Assembly: GCA_025054655.1 (NCBI GenBank)
Contig: JANWZL010000109.1
Span: forward strand, 1 to 39,184
Origin: Thiobacillaceae bacterium
GTDB lineage: Bacteria > Pseudomonadota > Gammaproteobacteria > Burkholderiales > Thiobacillaceae
Length of the DNA stretch: 39,184 nt
Direction: 5' to 3'
Numbering within the stretch: position 1 is the stretch's first letter; every line of letters begins with the position of its first letter. The notes under the pieces are model-generated. The model did no database searches. It was not told the origin of the DNA and saw nothing but the letters and a program-made list of their open reading frames with translations. Made by a program: the position numbers and the translations under genes. This document shows positions 1,871 to 15,875 of this stretch, in pieces.

Positions 1871-3373
1871 TTATCGCATCACGGCCGCCCCCGTGCGCAG
1901 CCGTTCGAGTAGTTCCACCCCAAGGGCGACGCCAAAGCCGGTCAGCTCGCTCGCCACCGCGCCCAGGCCCCCCTTGCAGCGGGAGGCTGACAGGTCCACG
2001 TGCAGCCATGGGCGCTCTCCCACGAAGCGGGCGAGGAAACGCGCGGCCAGGATGTGGTCGGCCTCGGCCTCCAGGATGCATTGTTTGACATCGGCCACCT
2101 GCGACTCCAGGGCCTCGTCGTAATCCTCCGGCGCGGGAAAGGCCACCACCCGCTCGCCCACGGCCTCGCCGGCCGCCACCGCCAACGTCGCCAGCTCGGA
2201 ACGATTGGCGAGCACCCCGCTCATGCGTTCGCCCAAGGCCACCGTCATGCTGCCGGTGAGGGTGGCGAAGTCGAGGATCAGCTGCGGCTCCTCACGCGCC
2301 GCCAGGGTCAGGGTGTCGGCCAGCACCATGCGCCCCTCGGCGTCGGTGTGCACCACCTCGATGCTGGTGCCGTTCAGGGCGCGCACCACCTCATTCTGGG
2401 TGTAGGCGCTTGGGGAGAGATGGTTTTGCGCAATGGCCAACCAGGCGCTGAGTCTGAGCGGGAATTTGAGGCGTGTGGCAGCGAGCAGCACCCCTAGGGC
2501 CACCGCCGAGCCGTTCATGTCGTCGTGCATGTTGTGCATGTAGCGGGCGGGCTTGAGGTTGTGCCCGCCGGTGTCGAAGCAGATGCCCTTGCCCACCAAG
2601 GCGTAGTGCCCCTTGCGTTTCCCGCGGCCTCCGCCGTCGTAGTGCACGCGCACGATGGCCGCGTCCTCGTGCTGGCTGCCGCGCGCCACGGCGAGGAAGG
2701 CACCGGCCCCGAGCTTGCGCAGGCGTTTGAGGTCGTACTCCTCCACCGCCCAGCCCAGGGCCTGGGCTAGAGTGCGCACGTGGGCGCGGTAGCTGGCCGG
2801 GGTGAGCTCGTTAGGCGGCAGCCAGGTGAGCCGGCGGGCGAGGTGGTTGCCCTCGGCCACTGCCCGCTCGCGGGCGAGATCCAGCCTTGCCAGCCCGTGG
2901 ATGTGGATGCGTTCGAGCGCCCAGGGCTTGTCTTCGCGCTTGCGGCTGGGCAGCGGGCAGCCGTTCAGCCAGGCCGTGTACACCGCCGCACGCGCCGCCA
3001 GCACACGGAAGGCATCGGGCCCGTACACGGCGATGTGCAGGCTGCGCGGGCGCTCTTCCAGCAGGGGTTGCAGGGCCTGCCGCAGCCGGGTGTGGCGGGT
3101 GTAGGGGTCGGCCTGGGGGTCCAGGCGCACCCAGCTGCTGAGGCAGCCGCCCGGCAGCTCGACGGCGACCGGTTTCTTGGCCAGCTCCTGGGCTTTGCTG
3201 CCACGCCGCTGCAGGCTGTGCTGGACCGCCTCACGGGCGAAGGCGTCGAACCAATCCTCGCCGGCCGGCAGCACGCACAGCAGCTGTCGCGCCGCATCGG
3301 GCAGTGCGGAGGGCGCTGCGGCGTGCCAGTCCAGGTCGGCGAGTTTCGGCAGCAGCTCGTGCGGGAAGGCCAT
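1871..3373 (-). CDS. Leucyl aminopeptidase family protein (peptidase M17)
   Basis: The 500-residue product has an N-terminal domain of low conservation and a C-terminal M17 catalytic domain, which removes N-terminal residues from peptides using two metal ions. The metal and active-site segments are present: [11 protein letters not shown] (Lys and Asp ligands), the following MHDDMNG (Asp ligand), and HTDAEGR (Asp, Glu and the bicarbonate-site Arg). The last motif is usually NTDAEGR; here His replaces Asn. The sequence resembles the less-studied M17 branch with [17 protein letters not shown] rather than classic PepA, so I give no symbol. The ATG at 3373 was chosen because the frame upstream runs into the aceE promoter region. 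The gene diverges from aceE and leads the aroC cluster. Confidence 0.9.
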
Positions 3374-3544: not shown

Positions 3545-6205
<2,661 letters not shown>

Positions 6206-6217
6206 AAGGAGCGCACC

Positions 6218-7558
6218 ATGGCCATCCAGGAAGTGCGCGTGCCGGACATCGGCAATTTCAAGGACGTGCCGGTGATCGACATCCTCGTCAAGCCCGGCGA
6301 CAAGGTGCACAAGAACGACCCGCTCATCACCTTGGAGTCGGACAAAGCGGCGATGGACATCCCCGCCCCGGTCGCCGGCACGGTGCAGGAGATCAAACTC
6401 AAGGTGGGCGACAAGGTGTCCGAGGGCAGCCCCATACTGCTCATCGACACCGCTGCCGAGGCGCCGGCGGCCGCCTCACCGGTGGTGAAGTCCTTCGTGC
6501 CGCCGCCAGCGCCCGAATCCGGCATGATCGCCGCGGCCGCCGCCCAGGTGCCGCCGCCCTCGCGCCTAGAGCCCGAGGTGCCGGGCCCCATCCCGCCGGC
6601 GGGCAGACCCGCGCCAGTGGCCGCGCGTGCCGAGTTCGCGCCAGGCAAGCCGCCGCATGCGAGCCCCTCGGTGCGCCGCTTCGCCCGCGAGCTGGGTGTG
6701 GACCTCGCGCGGGTGAAGGGCAGCGGCCCGCGCGGGCGCATCCTCAAGACCGACGTGCAGGCCTGGGTGAAGGCAGAACTCAGCAAACCGCGCGCCGAGG
6801 GCGCAGGCTTTGCGCTGGGGCTGCCGCCTGCACCAGTGGTGGATTTCAGCCAGTGGGGCGAGGTGGAGACCCAGCCGCTCACCCGCATCAAGAAGCTGTC
6901 GGGGGCCAACCTGGCGCGCAACTGGGTGATCGCCCCGCACGTGACCCAGTTCGACGAGGCCGACATCACCGACCTGGAGTCCTTCCGCAAGTCCATGCTG
7001 GAGGAGGCGGCCAAACGGGGGGTGAAACTCACCCTGCTCGCCTTCCTGATGAAGGCGGTGGTCAACGCCCTGCGCCACTATCCTCAGTTCAACGCCTCGC
7101 TCGCCCCCGATGGCGACCGTCTCATCCTCAAGAAGTATTATCACATCGGCTTCGCCTGCGAGACCCCGGACGGCCTGGTGGTGCCGGTCATCCGCGAGGT
7201 CAACCGCAAGGACGTGCTCGACATCGCGCGCGAACTGGGTGACCTCTCGGCGCGCGCGCGCGAGCGCAAGCTGAAGGTCGAGGAGATGCAGGGGGGCTGC
7301 TTCACCATCACCAGCCTGGGCGGCATTGGCGGCACCGCCTTCACCCCCATCATCAACGTACCCGAGGTGGCCATCCTGGGGGTGTCGCGGGCGGTCATGA
7401 AACCGGTGTGGAACGACAAGGCCGGCGAGTTCGAACCGCGCCTGATGCTGCCCCTGTCGCTGTCCTACGACCACCGCGTCATCGACGGGGCGGATGGGGC
7501 GCGCTTCACCAGCCACCTGCGCCTGATGCTGTCGGATGTGCGGCGTCTGCTGTTGTGA
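6218..7558 (+). CDS. aceF: Dihydrolipoamide acetyltransferase (pyruvate dehydrogenase E2)
   Basis: E2 forms the core of the pyruvate dehydrogenase complex and moves the acetyl group to CoA. The 446 residues hold one lipoyl domain (1-76; lipoylated lysine K43 in ESDKAAMDIP), a Pro/Ala-rich linker, a peripheral-subunit-binding domain (about 147-183, SPSVRRFARELGVDLARVKG) and a catalytic domain (about 215-446). The catalytic domain ends with YDHRVIDGAD, giving catalytic His419 and Asp423. Some gammaproteobacterial E2s carry two or three lipoyl domains; here there is one, with a second copy fused to E3. The ribosome site AAAGGAGC is strong. The last codons are followed by about 90 non-coding bases and then a toxin-antitoxin pair. 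Confidence 0.97.
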   Translation: MAIQEVRVPDIGNFKDVPVIDILVKPGDKVHKNDPLITLESDKAAMDIPAPVAGTVQEIKLKVGDKVSEGSPILLIDTAAEAPAAASPVVKSFVPPPAPESGMIAAAAAQVPPPSRLEPEVPGPIPPAGRPAPVAARAEFAPGKPPHASPSVRRFARELGVDLARVKGSGPRGRILKTDVQAWVKAELSKPRAEGAGFALGLPPAPVVDFSQWGEVETQPLTRIKKLSGANLARNWVIAPHVTQFDEADITDLESFRKSMLEEAAKRGVKLTLLAFLMKAVVNALRHYPQFNASLAPDGDRLILKKYYHIGFACETPDGLVVPVIREVNRKDVLDIARELGDLSARARERKLKVEEMQGGCFTITSLGGIGGTAFTPIINVPEVAILGVSRAVMKPVWNDKAGEFEPRLMLPLSLSYDHRVIDGADGARFTSHLRLMLSDVRRLLL

Positions 7559-7618
7559 AGACCCACGACACCGCAGCACCCCACACCTCTTTCCTTGTGC
7601 CTTGTCGAGCAGTTACTT

Positions 7619-7638
7619 AAACTAATATGACTTAGTTT
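7619..7638. promoter_or_regulatory. Inverted repeat, probable operator of the first toxin-antitoxin pair
   Basis: A perfect inverted repeat AAACTAA-TATGAC-TTAGTTT has 7-bp arms and a 6-base spacer. It is unusually AT-rich for this region and ends 12 bases before the antitoxin ATG. It overlaps TAATAT, a plausible -10 box (with a weak TTGTCG upstream). Phd/YefM antitoxins commonly repress their own promoter by binding such a site, so an operator role is the simplest reading; it is not proven. Confidence 0.55.
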
Positions 7639-7650
7639 TGTTGGTCAGGC

Positions 7651-7908
7651 ATGCAAACCGTCAACATCCACGAAGCCAAGACCCACTTGTCCAGACTGGT
7701 CGAGCAAGCGGCGCAGGGTGAGCCCTTCATCATCGCCAAGGCGGGCCGCCCGATGGTCAAGGTCGTACCCCTGGAGCACGGGGAGCGACGTCCCGCCAGC
7801 CGTCTGGGTTTCATGGTCGGACGGATCAAAGTCCCCGACGATTTCGACACCTTGGGCCAGGAGGAGATCGAGCGCTTGTTCATGGGGGCGCATGAAGCTG
7901 CTGCTTGA
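7651..7908 (+). CDS. Phd/YefM-type antitoxin
   Basis: The 85-residue product starts MQTVNIHEAKTHLSRLVEQA, the characteristic N-terminal DNA-binding fold of Phd/YefM antitoxins, followed by GEPFIIAKAGRPMVKVVPL. The C-terminal part (about 50-85), ending DTLGQEEIERLFMGAHE, would wrap the toxin. It overlaps the toxin gene by 17 bases, so translation of the two is probably coupled. The protein probably neutralises the PIN toxin and represses the pair through the repeat at 7619-7638. It lies in an unusual place, between aceF and lpdA. Confidence 0.9.
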   Translation: MQTVNIHEAKTHLSRLVEQAAQGEPFIIAKAGRPMVKVVPLEHGERRPASRLGFMVGRIKVPDDFDTLGQEEIERLFMGAHEAAA

Positions 7909-8278
7909 CACCCAAGTGTTACTCTGGGCCGCAGGCATGCCTGAAAGCCTGTCGCCCGCAGCCCAGCAGATGATCGCTGACAGCGACCACGAGCTCTGCT
8001 ACAGCGTCGCCAGCTTGTGGGAGATCGTCATCAAAAACGGCCTGGGCCGTTCTGACTTCCTGGTGGATGCGCGCCTGTTACGGCGCGGCCTCCTGGACCA
8101 TGGTTATCGCGAGCTGCCCGTCTCTGCGGAGCATGTCTTGGCGGTGGGCAGCCTACCGGCGATACATCGCGACCCTTTCGACCGCCTCCTGGTCGCGCAG
8201 GCGATGGTTGAGGGTATCGCGCTGGTTACGCGCGACGCCAGGCTGGCGCAATACCCCGCGCCCATCGTCCGTATCTGA
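7892..8278 (+). CDS. VapC-type PIN-domain toxin
   Basis: The 128-residue protein is a PIN-domain ribonuclease of the Sll0205-like VapC group. The acidic metal-binding set is complete: Asp6 in LLLDTQ, Glu44 in SLWEI, the DPFDRLLVAQA motif (Asp94, Asp97) and Asp115 in VTRDARL. Toxins of this group cleave RNA; the target here is unknown. The frame is open for 58 codons upstream of this ATG, but that part lies within the antitoxin gene and has no family resemblance. The ATG at 7892 begins MKLLLDTQ, as expected. lpdA follows 28 bases downstream. Confidence 0.9.
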   Translation: MKLLLDTQVLLWAAGMPESLSPAAQQMIADSDHELCYSVASLWEIVIKNGLGRSDFLVDARLLRRGLLDHGYRELPVSAEHVLAVGSLPAIHRDPFDRLLVAQAMVEGIALVTRDARLAQYPAPIVRI

Positions 8279-8306
8279 CTCCCACCCCTTAGACGAATAC
8301 CCCGAC

Positions 8307-10082
8307 ATGAACCCCTCCATCGAGATCAAGGTCCCCGACATCGGCAACTTCAAGGACGTGGCCGTCATCGACGTGCTGGTCAAGGTGGGCGATCGGGTAA
8401 ACAAGAACGACCCGCTCATCACCCTGGAGTCGGACAAGGCGGCCATGGACATCCCCTGCCCGATGCCCGGGGTGGTGGAGGCGCTCAAGGTGAAGGTGGG
8501 CGACAAGGTGTCGGAGGGCTCCCCCATCCTGCTGCTGGTGGCCGAGTCCGACACCCGTGTAGACACCGCAGGGATCGAGGCCGCGGTCCACACCCCACCC
8601 CCCTCCCCCCTTCCCACCTCCCCTTTCCCTCCTCCTCACCCCTCACCCCTCACCCCTCACCCTTCCCCCGACCTGCACGCCCAGCTCTTGGTCCTGGGTG
8701 CCGGGCCGGGCGGCTATACAGCGGCCTTCCGCGCCGCTGATCTGGGGCTCAGGGTGGTGCTGGTGGAGCGCTATCCCACCCTCGGGGGGGTGTGTCTCAA
8801 CGTCGGCTGCATCCCCTCCAAGGCCTTGCTGCACGCCGCGCGGGTGATCGCCGAGGCCGAGGAGATGGCCGCGCACGGGCTCGCCTTCGGCCGGCCGCAG
8901 ATCGACCTCGAGCGGCTGCGGGACTGGAAGGCGAAGGACGTGGTGGGTCGGCTCACCGGGGGGTTGGCGCAGCTTGCCCGCCAGCGCCAGGTGACGGTGG
9001 TCCAGGGCGTGGGCCGTTTCACCGGGCCACACCAGATGGAGGTCGCCGGCGCGGAGGGGGTGAAGACGATCGCCTTCGACCACGCCATCATCGCCGCCGG
9101 TTCGCGCCCCATCAAACTGCCTTTCCAGCCAGACGACCCGCGGGTGATGGACTCCACCGGTGCGCTCGAACTGGCCGATGTCCCCGGCCGACTGCTCATC
9201 ATCGGCGGCGGCATCATCGGTCTGGAGATGGGCACGGTCTACGACGCCCTGGGTAGCCGCGTGACCGTGGTGGAACTGGGCGGGCAGCTGATCCCGGGCT
9301 GCGACCCCGACCTGGTGCGTCCGCTGGCCAAACGCCTGGAAAAACGTTTCGCGGCCATCCTGCTACAGAGCAAGGTCACCGCCATGGAGGCGCACGTGGA
9401 GGGCATCGAGGTGACGATCGAGGGCGGCGGTGGGAGCCGGCGCGAGCTCTACGACCGCGTGCTGGTGGCCATCGGCCGCCGGCCCAACGGGGATGCGATC
9501 GGTGCCGAGGCGGCCGGCGTCAAGGTGGACGAGCGCGGCTTCATCCCGGTGGACCGTCAGATGCGCACCAATGTGCCGCACATTCTGGCCATCGGCGACA
9601 TCGTCGGACCGCCCATGCTGGCACACAAGGCAGTGCACGAGGGCAAGCTGGCGGCCGAGGTGATCGCCGGCCACAAGGTGGAGTTCCAGGCCCTGGCCAT
9701 CCCCGCGGTCGCCTACACCGACCCCGAGGTGGCCTGGGCGGGGCTGACCGAGACCGAGGCGCAGGCGCGCGGCATCGCCATCGACAAGGCCGTCTTCCCT
9801 TGGGCCGCCAGCGGTCGGGCGCTGTCGCTCGCCCGTACCGAGGGGCTCACCAAGCTGATCCTGGAGCCAGACACCCGCCGTGTGCTGGGCGCCGGTATCG
9901 TCGGGGTGAATGCCGGCGAGCTCATCGCCGAGGCGGTGCTCGCCATCGAGATGGGTGCCACCGCCGAGGACCTGGCGCTCACCATCCACGCCCACCCCAC
10001 CTTGTCGGAGACGGTTTGTTTCGCCGCCGAGCTGGCCGAGGGGAGCATCACCGACCTCATGCCGCCGCGGCGCAAAAAATGA
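8307..10082 (+). CDS. lpdA: Dihydrolipoamide dehydrogenase (E3) with N-terminal lipoyl domain
   Basis: E3 reoxidises dihydrolipoyl groups of the pyruvate dehydrogenase complex using FAD and NAD. The 591 residues comprise a lipoyl domain (1-78; K44 in ESDKAAMDIP), a Pro/His-rich linker (about 95-122) and a complete flavoprotein disulfide reductase. The reductase shows GAGPGGYTAA for FAD, the redox pair Cys163/Cys168 in GGVCLNVGC, GGGIIGLEMG for NAD, and the C-terminal base pair His563/Glu568. The fused lipoyl domain nearly repeats that of aceF. Start: ATG at 8307 (MNPSIEIKVPDIG); there is no clear ribosome site before it. A 7-bp tandem repeat encodes part of the linker. The final subunit of the operon is separated from aceF by the toxin-antitoxin pair. 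Confidence 0.96.
   Translation: MNPSIEIKVPDIGNFKDVAVIDVLVKVGDRVNKNDPLITLESDKAAMDIPCPMPGVVEALKVKVGDKVSEGSPILLLVAESDTRVDTAGIEAAVHTPPPSPLPTSPFPPPHPSPLTPHPSPDLHAQLLVLGAGPGGYTAAFRAADLGLRVVLVERYPTLGGVCLNVGCIPSKALLHAARVIAEAEEMAAHGLAFGRPQIDLERLRDWKAKDVVGRLTGGLAQLARQRQVTVVQGVGRFTGPHQMEVAGAEGVKTIAFDHAIIAAGSRPIKLPFQPDDPRVMDSTGALELADVPGRLLIIGGGIIGLEMGTVYDALGSRVTVVELGGQLIPGCDPDLVRPLAKRLEKRFAAILLQSKVTAMEAHVEGIEVTIEGGGGSRRELYDRVLVAIGRRPNGDAIGAEAAGVKVDERGFIPVDRQMRTNVPHILAIGDIVGPPMLAHKAVHEGKLAAEVIAGHKVEFQALAIPAVAYTDPEVAWAGLTETEAQARGIAIDKAVFPWAASGRALSLARTEGLTKLILEPDTRRVLGAGIVGVNAGELIAEAVLAIEMGATAEDLALTIHAHPTLSETVCFAAELAEGSITDLMPPRRKK
8635..8662. repeat. Four tandem copies of a 7-bp repeat inside lpdA
   Basis: CTCACCC occurs four times in perfect tandem, within a C/T-rich stretch running from about 8588 to 8670. 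It encodes part of the linker between the lipoyl and reductase domains (PHPSPLTPHPSP). Because 7 is not a multiple of 3, gain or loss of one copy would shift the frame before the reductase domain. Confidence 0.9.
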
Positions 10083-10174: not shown

Positions 10175-10747
10175 ATGTACGCCCTGGCCGAGCCACAGAT
10201 CACCCGCCACCGCCTCAGTGTGGAGGACTATCACCGCATGGCCGCGGCCGGCATCCTGCACGAGGACGACCGGGTCGAGCTGATCGAGGGGGAGATTATC
10301 GATATGGCACCGGCAAGCAGCTGGCATGCTGGCACGGTGGCGTGGTTGACACGTCTATTGCACGATGCGGTGGGGCAAAGCGCCATCGTCTCGGTGCAAA
10401 ACCCCGTGCGCCTGGACCGCTACTCCGAGCCCCAACCCGACCTCGCCCTCCTGCGCCCGCGCGAGGATTATTACACCCGCAGCCATCCCGGCCCCGGCGA
10501 TGTCCTGCTCATCGTCGAGGTCGCCCAATCGAGCCTGGCCTACGACCTGAAGCTGAAGGTCCCGCTCTACGCCCGTCATGGCATACCCGAGGTGTGGGTG
10601 TGGGACGTCGATACGGGTACCGTGCACGTCTGTCGCAACCCCGAAGGCGGTGTCTACCGGGAGATCGAGCCCCACACCGGGGCGTGTAGTTTGAGCCCCT
10701 TGCTGCTCCCCGGGATCAGCATAACAGTACAGCCCATCGCCCCATGA
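10175..10747 (+). CDS. Uma2 family protein (PD-(D/E)XK nuclease fold)
   Basis: The 190-residue product belongs to Uma2 (DUF820), a restriction-endonuclease-like fold abundant in some bacteria and of unknown cellular role. Seen here: the N-terminal LSVEDYHRMAAAG, EDDRVELIEGEIIDM, the conserved EPQPDLALL (Asp of the fold) and LLIVEVAQSSLAYDLKLK (Glu and Lys). The ATG at 10175 was chosen; a GTG at 10139 would add 12 residues but is less like family starts. Its stop overlaps the next ATG (ATGA at 10744), so the cysteine-rich protein is probably translated with it. A second Uma2 gene is at 37857. Confidence 0.85.
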   Translation: MYALAEPQITRHRLSVEDYHRMAAAGILHEDDRVELIEGEIIDMAPASSWHAGTVAWLTRLLHDAVGQSAIVSVQNPVRLDRYSEPQPDLALLRPREDYYTRSHPGPGDVLLIVEVAQSSLAYDLKLKVPLYARHGIPEVWVWDVDTGTVHVCRNPEGGVYREIEPHTGACSLSPLLLPGISITVQPIAP

Positions 10748-13578: not shown

Positions 13579-13818
13579 ATGCAAGTCAACATGCACGAGG
13601 CCAAGAGCCAGTTGTCGCGGCTGGTGCGCGCCGCCCTTGCCGGCGAGGAGGTCATCATCGCCCAACACGGTGTGCCTGTCGTGCGCCTGGTCCCGGTGCC
13701 CAGGACGGTACGCACGGGCGGTTGGGGGTGTCTCGATTTGGATCCTGCCGCGGTCGACGCCGCCTTCACGCCCGAGGTCGAGGCAGCAGTAGCGGCACAG
13801 TTCACCAGCGTGGATTGA
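13579..13818 (+). CDS. Phd/YefM-type antitoxin, second pair
   Basis: The 79-residue product begins MQVNMHEAKSQLSRLVRAAL, followed by GEEVIIAQHGVPVVRLVPVP, the Phd/YefM N-terminal fold. It is clearly related to the antitoxin at 7651 in the N-terminal half but has a different toxin-binding tail (DLDPAAVDAAFTPEVE). That difference suggests separate partner specificity. The ATG at 13579 follows AGGA; an in-frame ATG at 13555 would add 8 residues. The stop shares one base with the toxin start (TGATG), which favours coupled translation. Confidence 0.9.
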   Translation: MQVNMHEAKSQLSRLVRAALAGEEVIIAQHGVPVVRLVPVPRTVRTGGWGCLDLDPAAVDAAFTPEVEAAVAAQFTSVD

Positions 13819-14195
13819 TGGCGCCCCTGTTGCTGGACACCCATGTAGCCCTATGGTGGTTCACGGCACACCCACGGCTCACCCCTCAGATGCAGGACAC
13901 CATCGCCCGCTCGCCCTGTCATCTCTCCGCCGCTTCGATCTGGGAGGTGGCGATCAAGCATCGGCTCGGCAAGCTGACGGTGGCCCCGCACACGCTGATC
14001 GAGCTGGCGCAGGCCGCGAACATGCACTGCCTGTCGGTCACTGCTGAGCATTGCGCCGCCACCGCCGAGCTGCCGCTCCTGCACGGCGACCCCTTTGATC
14101 GCCTGCTAATCGCCCAGGCCCGTATCGAGCGGCTTCGGCTGTTGACCTGTGATGCGGCGTTGAGCGGGTACGGCGGTGACATACAGGTCGTTTGA
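13818..14195 (+). CDS. VapC-type PIN-domain toxin, second pair
   Basis: The 125-residue PIN-domain protein belongs to the same Sll0205-like group as the toxin at 7892. The acidic set is intact: Asp7 in LLLDTHVALWW, Glu43 in SIWEVAIK, DPFDRLLIAQA (Asp91, Asp94) and Asp112 in LTCDAAL. It is predicted to cleave RNA when freed from its antitoxin. It starts in the antitoxin stop (TGATG) and ends 15 bases before ettA, so it may be cotranscribed with this translation factor, although ettA has its own ribosome site. Confidence 0.9.
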   Translation: MAPLLLDTHVALWWFTAHPRLTPQMQDTIARSPCHLSAASIWEVAIKHRLGKLTVAPHTLIELAQAANMHCLSVTAEHCAATAELPLLHGDPFDRLLIAQARIERLRLLTCDAALSGYGGDIQVV

Positions 14196-14210: not shown

Positions 14211-15875
14211 ATGGCCCAATACGTCATGTCCATGCTCCGCGTGAGCAAGACCGTGCCGCCCAAGCGGCAGATCATCAAGGATATCTCGCTGTCCTTTTTC
14301 CCCGGCGCCAAGATCGGTCTGCTGGGCTTGAATGGCGCCGGCAAGTCCACCGTGCTGCGCATCATGGCCGGGGTGGATAAGGAATTCGAGGGCGAGGTGC
14401 AATGGCAGCCGGGCATCCGCATCGGCTATCTGCCGCAGGAGCCACAGCTCGATCCCGACAAGACCGTGCGCGAGGAGGTGGAGTCGGGTCTGGGCGAGGT
14501 GATCGAGGCGCGCCGCCGGCTGGAGGAGATCTACGCCGCCTATGCCGAGCCGGACGCCGACTTCGACCGACTGGCCGAGGAGCAGGCGCGACTGGAGGCC
14601 ATCCTCGCTGCGGCCGGCAGCGACATCGACAACCAGCTGGAGATCGCCGCCGATGCGCTGCGGCTGCCGCCCTGGGAGGCGAAGATCGCCCATCTGTCCG
14701 GCGGAGAGAGGCGGCGTGTGGCGCTGTGCAAACTGCTGCTGTCCAAGCCCGACATGCTCTTGCTGGACGAGCCCACCAACCACCTGGACGCGGAATCGGT
14801 GGAGTGGTTGGAGCAATACCTGACCCGCTTTCCCGGCACGGTGGTGGCGGTCACCCACGACCGCTATTTCCTCGACAACGCCGCCGAGTGGATTCTGGAG
14901 CTCGACCGCGGCCAGGGCATCCCCTGGAAGGGCAATTACTCTTCCTGGCTAGAGCAGAAGGAGGCGCGCCTGGAGCAGGAGCAAAAGCAGATCGACGCGC
15001 ACATGAAGGCCATGAAACGCGAGCTGGAGTGGGTGCGCGCGAACCCCAAGGCGCGCCAGGCCAAGGCCAAGGCCAGGCTCAATCGCTACGAGGAGCTGGC
15101 CAGCTTCGAGTACCAGAAACGCAACGAGACGCAAGAGATCTTCATCCCGCCGGGCGAACGCCTGGGCGACAAGGTGATCGAGTTCCACCACGTCAGCAAG
15201 GGGTATGGCGATCGGCTGCTGATCGACGATCTGTCGTTCAGCGTTCCGCCGGGGGCCATCGTCGGCATCATCGGCCCCAACGGGGCGGGCAAGTCCACCC
15301 TGTTTCGCATGATCCTCGGCCAGGAACGGCCCGACAGCGGCGAGGTGATCATCGGTCCGACGGTGAAGATCGCGGCGGTGGACCAGTCGCGCGAGGGGCT
15401 GCCGAACGACAAAACGGTGTTCGAGGCCATCGCCGACGGCCAGGATGTCATCCGCGTGGGTCGCTTCGAGATGCCGGTGCGGGCCTACCTGGCCCGCTTC
15501 AACTTCAAGGGGGCGGATCAGGGCAAGATCGTCGGCAACCTCTCCGGCGGCGAACGCGGCCGGCTGCACCTGGCCAAGACCCTGCTCGCCGGCGGCAACG
15601 TGCTGTTGCTGGACGAGCCCTCCAACGACCTGGACGTCGAGACCCTGCGCGCGCTGGAGGATGCCCTGCTGGAATTCGCCGGCAGTGCCCTCGTCATCAG
15701 CCACGACCGCTGGTTCCTCGACCGCATCTGCACCCACATCCTCGCTGCCGAGGGCGATTCGCAGTGGACCTTCTTCGCCGGCAACTACCAGGAATACGAG
15801 GCGGACAAGCGCCGCCGGCTGGGTGAGGAAGGGGCGCGGCCCCGCCGCATCCGCTACAAGCCCATCAGCCGGTGA
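14211..15875 (+). CDS. ettA: Energy-dependent translational throttle protein (ABC-F)
   Basis: EttA is a soluble ABC-F ATPase that binds the ribosomal exit (E) site and gates early elongation according to ATP/ADP. The 554 residues match E. coli EttA (555). Two ATPase domains are complete: Walker A GLNGAGKST and GPNGAGKST, signatures LSGGERRR and LSGGERGR, and Walker B LLLDEPTNHLD and LLLDEPSNDLD. Between them lie the charged linker (about 245-305, KQIDAHMKAMKRELEWVR) and the family-typical NRYEELASFEYQKRNET. The ATG at 14211 follows GAGGT. The stop overlaps the GTG of the next gene by 4 bases. The preceding toxin-antitoxin pair is on the same strand. Confidence 0.96.
   Translation: MAQYVMSMLRVSKTVPPKRQIIKDISLSFFPGAKIGLLGLNGAGKSTVLRIMAGVDKEFEGEVQWQPGIRIGYLPQEPQLDPDKTVREEVESGLGEVIEARRRLEEIYAAYAEPDADFDRLAEEQARLEAILAAAGSDIDNQLEIAADALRLPPWEAKIAHLSGGERRRVALCKLLLSKPDMLLLDEPTNHLDAESVEWLEQYLTRFPGTVVAVTHDRYFLDNAAEWILELDRGQGIPWKGNYSSWLEQKEARLEQEQKQIDAHMKAMKRELEWVRANPKARQAKAKARLNRYEELASFEYQKRNETQEIFIPPGERLGDKVIEFHHVSKGYGDRLLIDDLSFSVPPGAIVGIIGPNGAGKSTLFRMILGQERPDSGEVIIGPTVKIAAVDQSREGLPNDKTVFEAIADGQDVIRVGRFEMPVRAYLARFNFKGADQGKIVGNLSGGERGRLHLAKTLLAGGNVLLLDEPSNDLDVETLRALEDALLEFAGSALVISHDRWFLDRICTHILAAEGDSQWTFFAGNYQEYEADKRRRLGEEGARPRRIRYKPISR

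Follow-up and report, generated by a model that had tools for sequence, protein, structure and literature searches.

Insertion of a toxin-antitoxin (TA) pair into an operon or before an ancestral gene is an already known kind of event. In Caulobacter crescentus, higBA, a likely foreign TA pair with a regulated promoter of its own, lies 42 bp before the ancestral gene higX and is missing from most relatives that have higX, as described in the accessible part of the report (PMC13384398). The same part states that higX stayed low in strains lacking the antitoxin or the whole pair, and that only the additional lack of LexA raised it (PMC13384398). In Thermus thermophilus HB8, an MNT-HEPN module sits inside the lysine biosynthesis operon and is absent in strain HB27, according to the accessible part of a second report (PMC2701414).

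Here we analyse a TA pair located between the E2 and E3 genes of a pyruvate dehydrogenase operon. As far as the accessible part of the Caulobacter report goes, the two cases share a likely foreign TA pair that has its own promoter, precedes an ancestral gene and is missing from most relatives, but HigBA is not a Phd/PIN pair, higX encodes a transcription factor rather than an enzyme, and higX is under LexA control. The Thermus case is similar in that a metabolic operon of one strain contains a TA-like module which a close relative lacks, but the proteins belong to other families, and the accessible part of that report makes no mention of recurrence before core genes. A search of the open literature, outside which most subscription papers lie, returned no paper on a TA pair before lpdA, lysS or ettA. 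The recurrence of pairs before core genes looks new, and is the part worth pursuing. For the locus as a whole, we consider it probable that a horizontally acquired cassette entered once, in sense, that lpdA is doubly transcribed, and that the arrangement is one case of a lineage-wide habit.

Organization of the locus

The window, the whole stretch of 39,184 nucleotides analysed here, is the complete contig G000:C4 of an incomplete genome (G000; 2.2 Mb, 157 contigs). It contains the following features.

3545-6205, + strand: aceE, pyruvate dehydrogenase E1 (NCBIfam TIGR00759 equivalog, 1522 bits)
6218-7558, + strand: aceF, E2, with a single lipoyl domain (NCBIfam TIGR01348; PF00198, PF00364, PF02817)
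7651-7908, + strand: antitoxin of the Phd/YefM family, 85 aa (PF02604 and TIGR01552)
7892-8278, + strand: toxin with a PIN domain (VapC type), 128 aa (PF01850)
8279-8306, + strand: toxin-to-lpdA gap of 28 bases, without a terminator-like site and without a Shine-Dalgarno match
8307-10082, + strand: lpdA, dihydrolipoyl dehydrogenase (E3), with an N-terminal lipoyl domain (NCBIfam TIGR01350; PF00364)
13579-14195, + strand: a second Phd/PIN pair, 15 bases before ettA
14211-15875, + strand: ettA, energy-dependent translational throttle (NCBIfam NF008775, 976 bits)

AceE, AceF and LpdA are equivalog matches in NCBIfam. The open reading frame coordinates agree with the arrangement described in an earlier note on this DNA, in which aceE and aceF are 12 bases apart and a Phd/VapC-type pair on the + strand, between aceF and lpdA, ends 28 bases before lpdA. 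The same arrangement is met again in an independent genome, G003, and is therefore no assembly chimera.

Two further features were observed at lpdA. A Uma2-family gene (PF05685) lies 3′ of it (10175-10747) and is present in G003 too, and the linker between the lipoyl and E3 portions (8590-8670) is encoded by a run of CTCACCCC-like repeats.

A predicted type II toxin-antitoxin pair

The antitoxin matches Pfam PF02604 (PhdYeFM_antitox) with an E-value of 1.3e-11 and 44.6 bits (curated cut-off 29.8) and NCBIfam TIGR01552 (phd_fam) with 35.4 bits (cut-off 20.8), while the toxin matches Pfam PF01850 (PIN) with an E-value of 8.5e-14 and 52.6 bits (curated cut-off 23.6). The NCBIfam profile search gave the toxin no name, and phmmer searches of PDB sequences (E up to 1 and E up to 0.01; 0.01 for the toxin) returned no relative of either protein. 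Toxin residues D6, E44, D97 and D115 are the acidic PIN residues, and the corresponding alignment columns hold D or E in 33/38, 36/38, 36/38 and 30/38 toxins of the genus. Of 80 named relatives of the toxin, 76 have an antitoxin homologue in their locus.

The antitoxin gene comes first and overlaps the toxin gene by 17 bases. The element combines an antitoxin of a known DNA-binding family, a PIN toxin and a bicistronic antitoxin-first layout, together with a putative palindromic operator identified from sequence conservation alone. Between G000 and G003, dN/dS is 0.12 for the antitoxin and 0.16 for the toxin, comparably low values being seen for aceF (0.18) and lpdA (0.25); the ratios indicate that both genes of the pair are under purifying selection. 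On these features the aceF-lpdA element is classified as a type II pair, made up of a Phd/YefM antitoxin and a VapC-type PIN toxin whose activity is predicted. It resembles Phd/YefM-VapC systems in its small overlapping genes with the antitoxin first, in the PIN acidic residues and in the palindrome over the −10 box, but, unlike a typical system of this kind, it is located between the E2 and E3 genes, with no terminator found before the core gene.

Origin of the pair in the aceF-lpdA gap

To place the pair in its lineage, the aceF-lpdA gap was compared across relatives, as the earlier note had proposed. Fifty loci were tried, of which 41 gave a gap, representing 40 genomes, G000 among them (31 of the family and 9 of the order), since L030 and L164 belong to one genome. 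In eight loci no aceF end lies within the stretch (L013, L017, L019, L021, L023, L024, L028 and L148), and L163 has no usable aceF-lpdA pairing. The pair occupies the gap in 2/40 genomes, G000 and G003, both of one genus, where the gap measures 748 and 749 bases, respectively; the pair as a general feature of the family is thus rejected. G001, the third genus member with lpdA, has an empty gap of 49 bases, so that filled (G000, G003) and empty (G001) sites are found in close relatives. Among the measured family genomes, 29 lack the pair; their gap is 12-234 bases long, and lpdA is an ordinary operon member after aceF. The comparison points to a fairly recent insertion.

The G003 pair is orthologous to the G000 pair (proteins 81% and 82% identical), and the next closest relative found for the toxin has 72% identity. 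A FastTree tree of AceF, LpdA and EttA places G000 and G003 together to the exclusion of G001 with a support of 0.998; a single acquisition, later than the divergence of G001, is thus enough to account for the data. To judge by record titles, the toxin has relatives in many phyla; relatives were also found on 215 plasmid records. None of the 80 named loci, each covering up to 4 kb on each side, has aceF or lpdA beside the toxin relative, and the pair is accordingly a mobile module. Taken together, the comparison supports a single insertion, in sense, of a horizontally acquired pair into the lineage ancestral to two sister species. The event appears to be genuine and unique, and the inserted pair intact.

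No convincing target-site duplication or terminal repeat was found at the pair; the short repeats present, among them the 9-base AATACCCCG at 8250 and 8296, appear to be chance occurrences. Inspection by eye gave no match between the empty gap of G001 and the filled one.

The gap is variable in content elsewhere. In many relatives (e.g. L011, L014, L015 and L133-L145) it holds REP-like palindromes of several kinds, as judged by eye, as if it were a permissive spot for small elements. In two order-level genomes, G026 and G031 (L020 and L025), it holds a different gene on the same strand, with a start like MTT.VARKNGQIAIA, which, unlike the pair described here, is by eye neither toxin- nor antitoxin-like. 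The pdhA-pdhB-ORF3-pdhL cluster of Ralstonia eutropha is a comparable case, in which an additional gene separates E2 from an E3 that bears a lipoyl domain, and the G026/G031 gene is possibly the same as ORF3.

Likely promoter and operator of the pair

Upstream of the antitoxin gene, two putative regulatory features are located.

7595-7623, + strand: likely promoter of the pair (TTGTGC at 7595-7600, a 17-base spacer and TAAACT at 7618-7623)
7619-7638, no strand: likely operator, a palindrome AAACTAA-N6-TTAGTTT over the −10 box, supported by conservation in homologues and in G003

The −10 box ends 27 bases 5′ of the antitoxin start. Conservation was assessed in 40 distinct upstream regions of antitoxin homologues with at least 58% identity, G000 and G003 included, using patterns composed after inspection of the data: a palindrome ACTAA-N5..7-TT[AG]G[TC] is found in 25/40 (0.04 expected in shuffles), and a promoter layout TTG-N3-N16..18-TA[AG]ACT in 22/40 (0.09 expected). 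A stricter palindrome pattern is found in 16/95 loci of a wider set that includes distant relatives. Between G000 and G003, the aceF-antitoxin spacer has little in common by eye beyond TAAACTAA-N3-GACTTAGT; the operator core is preserved in G003 while most of the spacer differs. A strict consensus promoter scan of 7000-8700 flagged no promoter, the layout of the pair included.

The operator that the earlier note had proposed from 7619 onwards corresponds to a palindrome that occurs above chance, in 25 of the 40 close homologues, and the pair likely carries a conserved promoter/operator layout of its own.

Transcription of lpdA

A scan of 7000-8700 found no terminator-like site on the + strand; on the − strand there is one, versus 0.9 expected. 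Upstream of the antitoxin, the gap is no more strongly folded than shuffles (z 0.60). Around the lpdA start, 76 bases are less folded than shuffles (z 1.98) and 37 bases are ordinary (z −0.42). Since no + strand terminator was found, lpdA should be reachable both by read-through from aceEF and from the promoter of the pair. The operon would thus be unbroken by the insertion, there being no terminator on either side, and lpdA would most likely be transcribed by aceEF read-through plus the promoter of the pair. The operator overlaps the −10 box, so the share contributed by the pair should track the antitoxin: on general knowledge of type II systems, this share would be low when antitoxin is plentiful and would rise on antitoxin degradation. 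A rise of E3 output on antitoxin loss is plausible, as an extrapolation from this arrangement.

The earlier note had suggested a partial dependence of E3 on the promoter of the pair, citing as well the lack of a clear ribosome site at lpdA. What is supported of this is a fairly recent sense insertion with a conserved promoter layout and no + strand terminator, so that the promoter of the pair could reach lpdA; a dependence of E3 on it is conjecture. The lack of a clear ribosome site is accurate as an observation, there being no Shine-Dalgarno match of at least 3 bases, but is rejected as a sign of coupling. Specifically, 23/28 lpdA leaders from the window, G003, G001 and other relatives, entered by hand and in some cases not reaching the 17-base scan length, have at most 3 Shine-Dalgarno-matching bases, and the leader in G001, with its empty site, has no match. 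Because weak sites are common in the family, empty-site G001 included, the weak lpdA site is no mark of the insertion.

Against a strong form of the reading, aceEF read-through may supply all the lpdA mRNA needed, and lpdA in general is not in need of the pair, since 38/40 measured genomes are without it. The closest tested precedent also counts against the strong form, since in the accessible part of the Caulobacter report loss of the antitoxin alone left higX low.

PIN pairs before core genes across the genus

Matches to PF01850 number 11 in G000, 13 in G001, 2 in G002 and 13 in G003. A gene caller based on codon usage and trained on the genes of the window was run on 40 PIN places in G000, G001 and G003. 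Once orthologous places had been grouped by hand, 28 distinct sites followed by a gene remained. In the resulting table, G003:C41 was dropped (contig end), G001:C57 and G003:C25 were uncalled and placed by hand, and both PIN matches of G002 were left out. For sites found in several genomes the table gives the gap from one of them; G001:C137 has a weak downstream ORF.

The downstream gene is in sense at 21/28 sites (binomial p 0.006 versus one half) and both in sense and within 30 bases at 14/28; sites common to at least two genus members make up 9/21 of those in sense versus 0/7 of the others (Fisher p 0.043), with p values that are uncorrected and post hoc and rest on the custom gene caller and the hand-grouped sites. 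The outside set consists of 80 loci from named genomes that carry a relative of the window's toxin; a self-trained caller found both genes in 76 of them and a downstream gene in 74. Only 6/74 are in sense and within 30 bases, in a comparison of unlike sets, namely all PIN toxins in the genus and relatives of the window's toxin outside it. Sense orientation alone does not differ significantly between 21/28 in the genus and 41/74 in the outside set (p 0.055), and a sense bias among the toxin's relatives outside the genus is not clear (41/74). A less refined caller, applied to 95 loci of mixed origin, split them 47 to 47; it misplaced the gene after the window's own pair and was not relied on. 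In the family outside the genus, 36/37 listed toxin relatives have a downstream gene, 24 in sense and 3 within 30 bases, with repeats of one site unmerged.

The downstream genes within 30 bases include lysS, ettA, hisG, dcd and dgt. NCBIfam models above cut-off identify prfB-[pair]-lysS, aroB-[pair]-dgt and miaB-[pair] in G000, murA-[pair], apbC-[pair], lon-[pair] and gmd-[pair] in G003, and, in addition, [pair]-ettA, [pair]-ggt and, at a distance of 92-202 bases, [pair]-murJ. The hisG gene after murA-[pair] is named in G000; models for PhoH, ScpA and GDP-fucose synthase match the genes that follow miaB, lon and gmd, but score below cut-off; and dcd after apbC was named by sequence reading, with no NCBIfam match at 1e-50. 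Non-core downstream genes exist as well, by eye a DNA methyltransferase-like gene at G001:C22 and a helicase-like gene at G001:C72:3672. Some pairs have decayed: the aroB-dgt pair, open in G000 (L237), is broken in G003 by stops and an extra stretch in the toxin (L266, about 2553-3309), and the miaB-ybeZ toxin of G000 contains a stop.

The occupation of gaps before core genes by PIN pairs is probably a wider habit of the lineage, of which the aceF-lpdA gap is one case, and the core enzymes downstream of such cassettes may be partly under TA control.

Separately, the G003 pair next to lon (L260, 240-4214) was seen to lie between lon and a scpA-like gene; Lon protease is known in general to degrade antitoxins.

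The lysS and ettA sites

In each of the 97 genomes in which lysS, the lysyl-tRNA synthetase gene, was found (E 1e-150), the search gave a single match. An antitoxin-PIN pair directly precedes lysS in 10/30 loci (L332-L336, L352, L354, L356, L359 and L360), which span four genera and include 4/4 members of the genus examined, with −4 to 26 bases between toxin and lysS. In 7/10 of these loci the antitoxin is preceded by a divergent gene, and TATA[AC]T between two GTGNCAC half-sites is located 5′ of the antitoxin in 9/10, the exception being G003. A PIN toxin stands immediately 5′ of ettA in 6/30 family loci examined (91 genomes with a match), from G000, G001 and G003 and from G043, G045 and G006 of another genus. 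One kind of toxin is found in G000, G001, G043 and G045 (59-62% identity between genera or species, 96% between G043 and G045), and a second, very different kind in G003 and G006 (63%); since the two kinds cross the genera, occupancy of the ettA slot does not track the genus. The gene upstream of the ettA pair in the window is divergent. A PIN gene upstream was not found in 20/30 lysS loci and 24/30 ettA loci.

Because the pair is often first in its unit, the simplest view is that lysS and ettA are transcribed through it, and lysS at pair-bearing loci is most simply the third gene of a TA unit. The general idea of coupling is thus better supported at the lysS and ettA sites than at lpdA.

If lysS and ettA are transcribed through a TA unit, then the pairs are more than addictive passengers, and essential functions are placed under antitoxin control. 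Chromosomal pairs would in that case become hard to lose, giving a testable answer to the question of why chromosomes keep so many of them. At lpdA the insertion is young and another member of the genus has the empty site, which would allow the first steps of capture to be compared directly.

Alternative explanations

The pair at lpdA could be a neutral passenger in a permissive gap that survives by addiction alone, with lpdA transcribed entirely from the aceE promoter, an account to which we give a little less than an even chance. The gap varies from 12 to 234 bases in the 29 pair-less family genomes and often holds palindromes that look REP-like by eye, another gene occupies it in G026 and G031, and a sense insertion without a terminator would be tolerated. 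However, a conserved promoter layout is directed towards lpdA, no terminator was found on the way, and the sites shared between species are all in sense, by the post hoc test given above; neutrality also fits lpdA better than it fits lysS or ettA. One may instead suppose that the downstream core gene now needs the promoter of the pair, that the pair can therefore not be lost, and that TA autoregulation tunes the gene. The divergent gene upstream of most lysS-slot antitoxins, the −10 box and half-sites kept in 9/10, the single lysS match in each of the 97 genomes and the presence of the pair in all four genus members examined are consistent with this supposition. Yet 20/30 lysS loci, 24/30 ettA loci and 38/40 aceF-lpdA gaps lack a PIN pair, pairs decay at some slots, the aceE promoter is still available to lpdA, and promoters inside the toxin gene are conceivable; we regard such dependence as rather unlikely.

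A broader proposal, which we put forward tentatively and would not expect to hold, is that the PIN operons of the family act as self-regulated promoter modules of core genes, with lysS as third gene in at least four genera, the ettA slot filled by two very different pairs, E3 as a younger capture, and toxin and core enzyme rising together on antitoxin degradation. That the three genes form a functional module, with E3 or its lipoyl domain joining the TA response, is highly improbable: the adjacency is kept in two species, but the 80 named loci of relatives are without aceF or lpdA, and other pairs of the genus precede unrelated genes.

PIN pairs before other putative translation genes

In genus g7, PIN pairs were observed by eye before a SerS-like ORF, 124-313 bases after the toxin (L299, L304 and L306), before a GlnS-like ORF, at 51-75 bases (L300, L305 and L314), and before an MnmA-like ORF, at 4 bases (L300 and L305). 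As these serS-, glnS- and mnmA-like genes add to lysS, several translation genes appear to be preceded by pairs.
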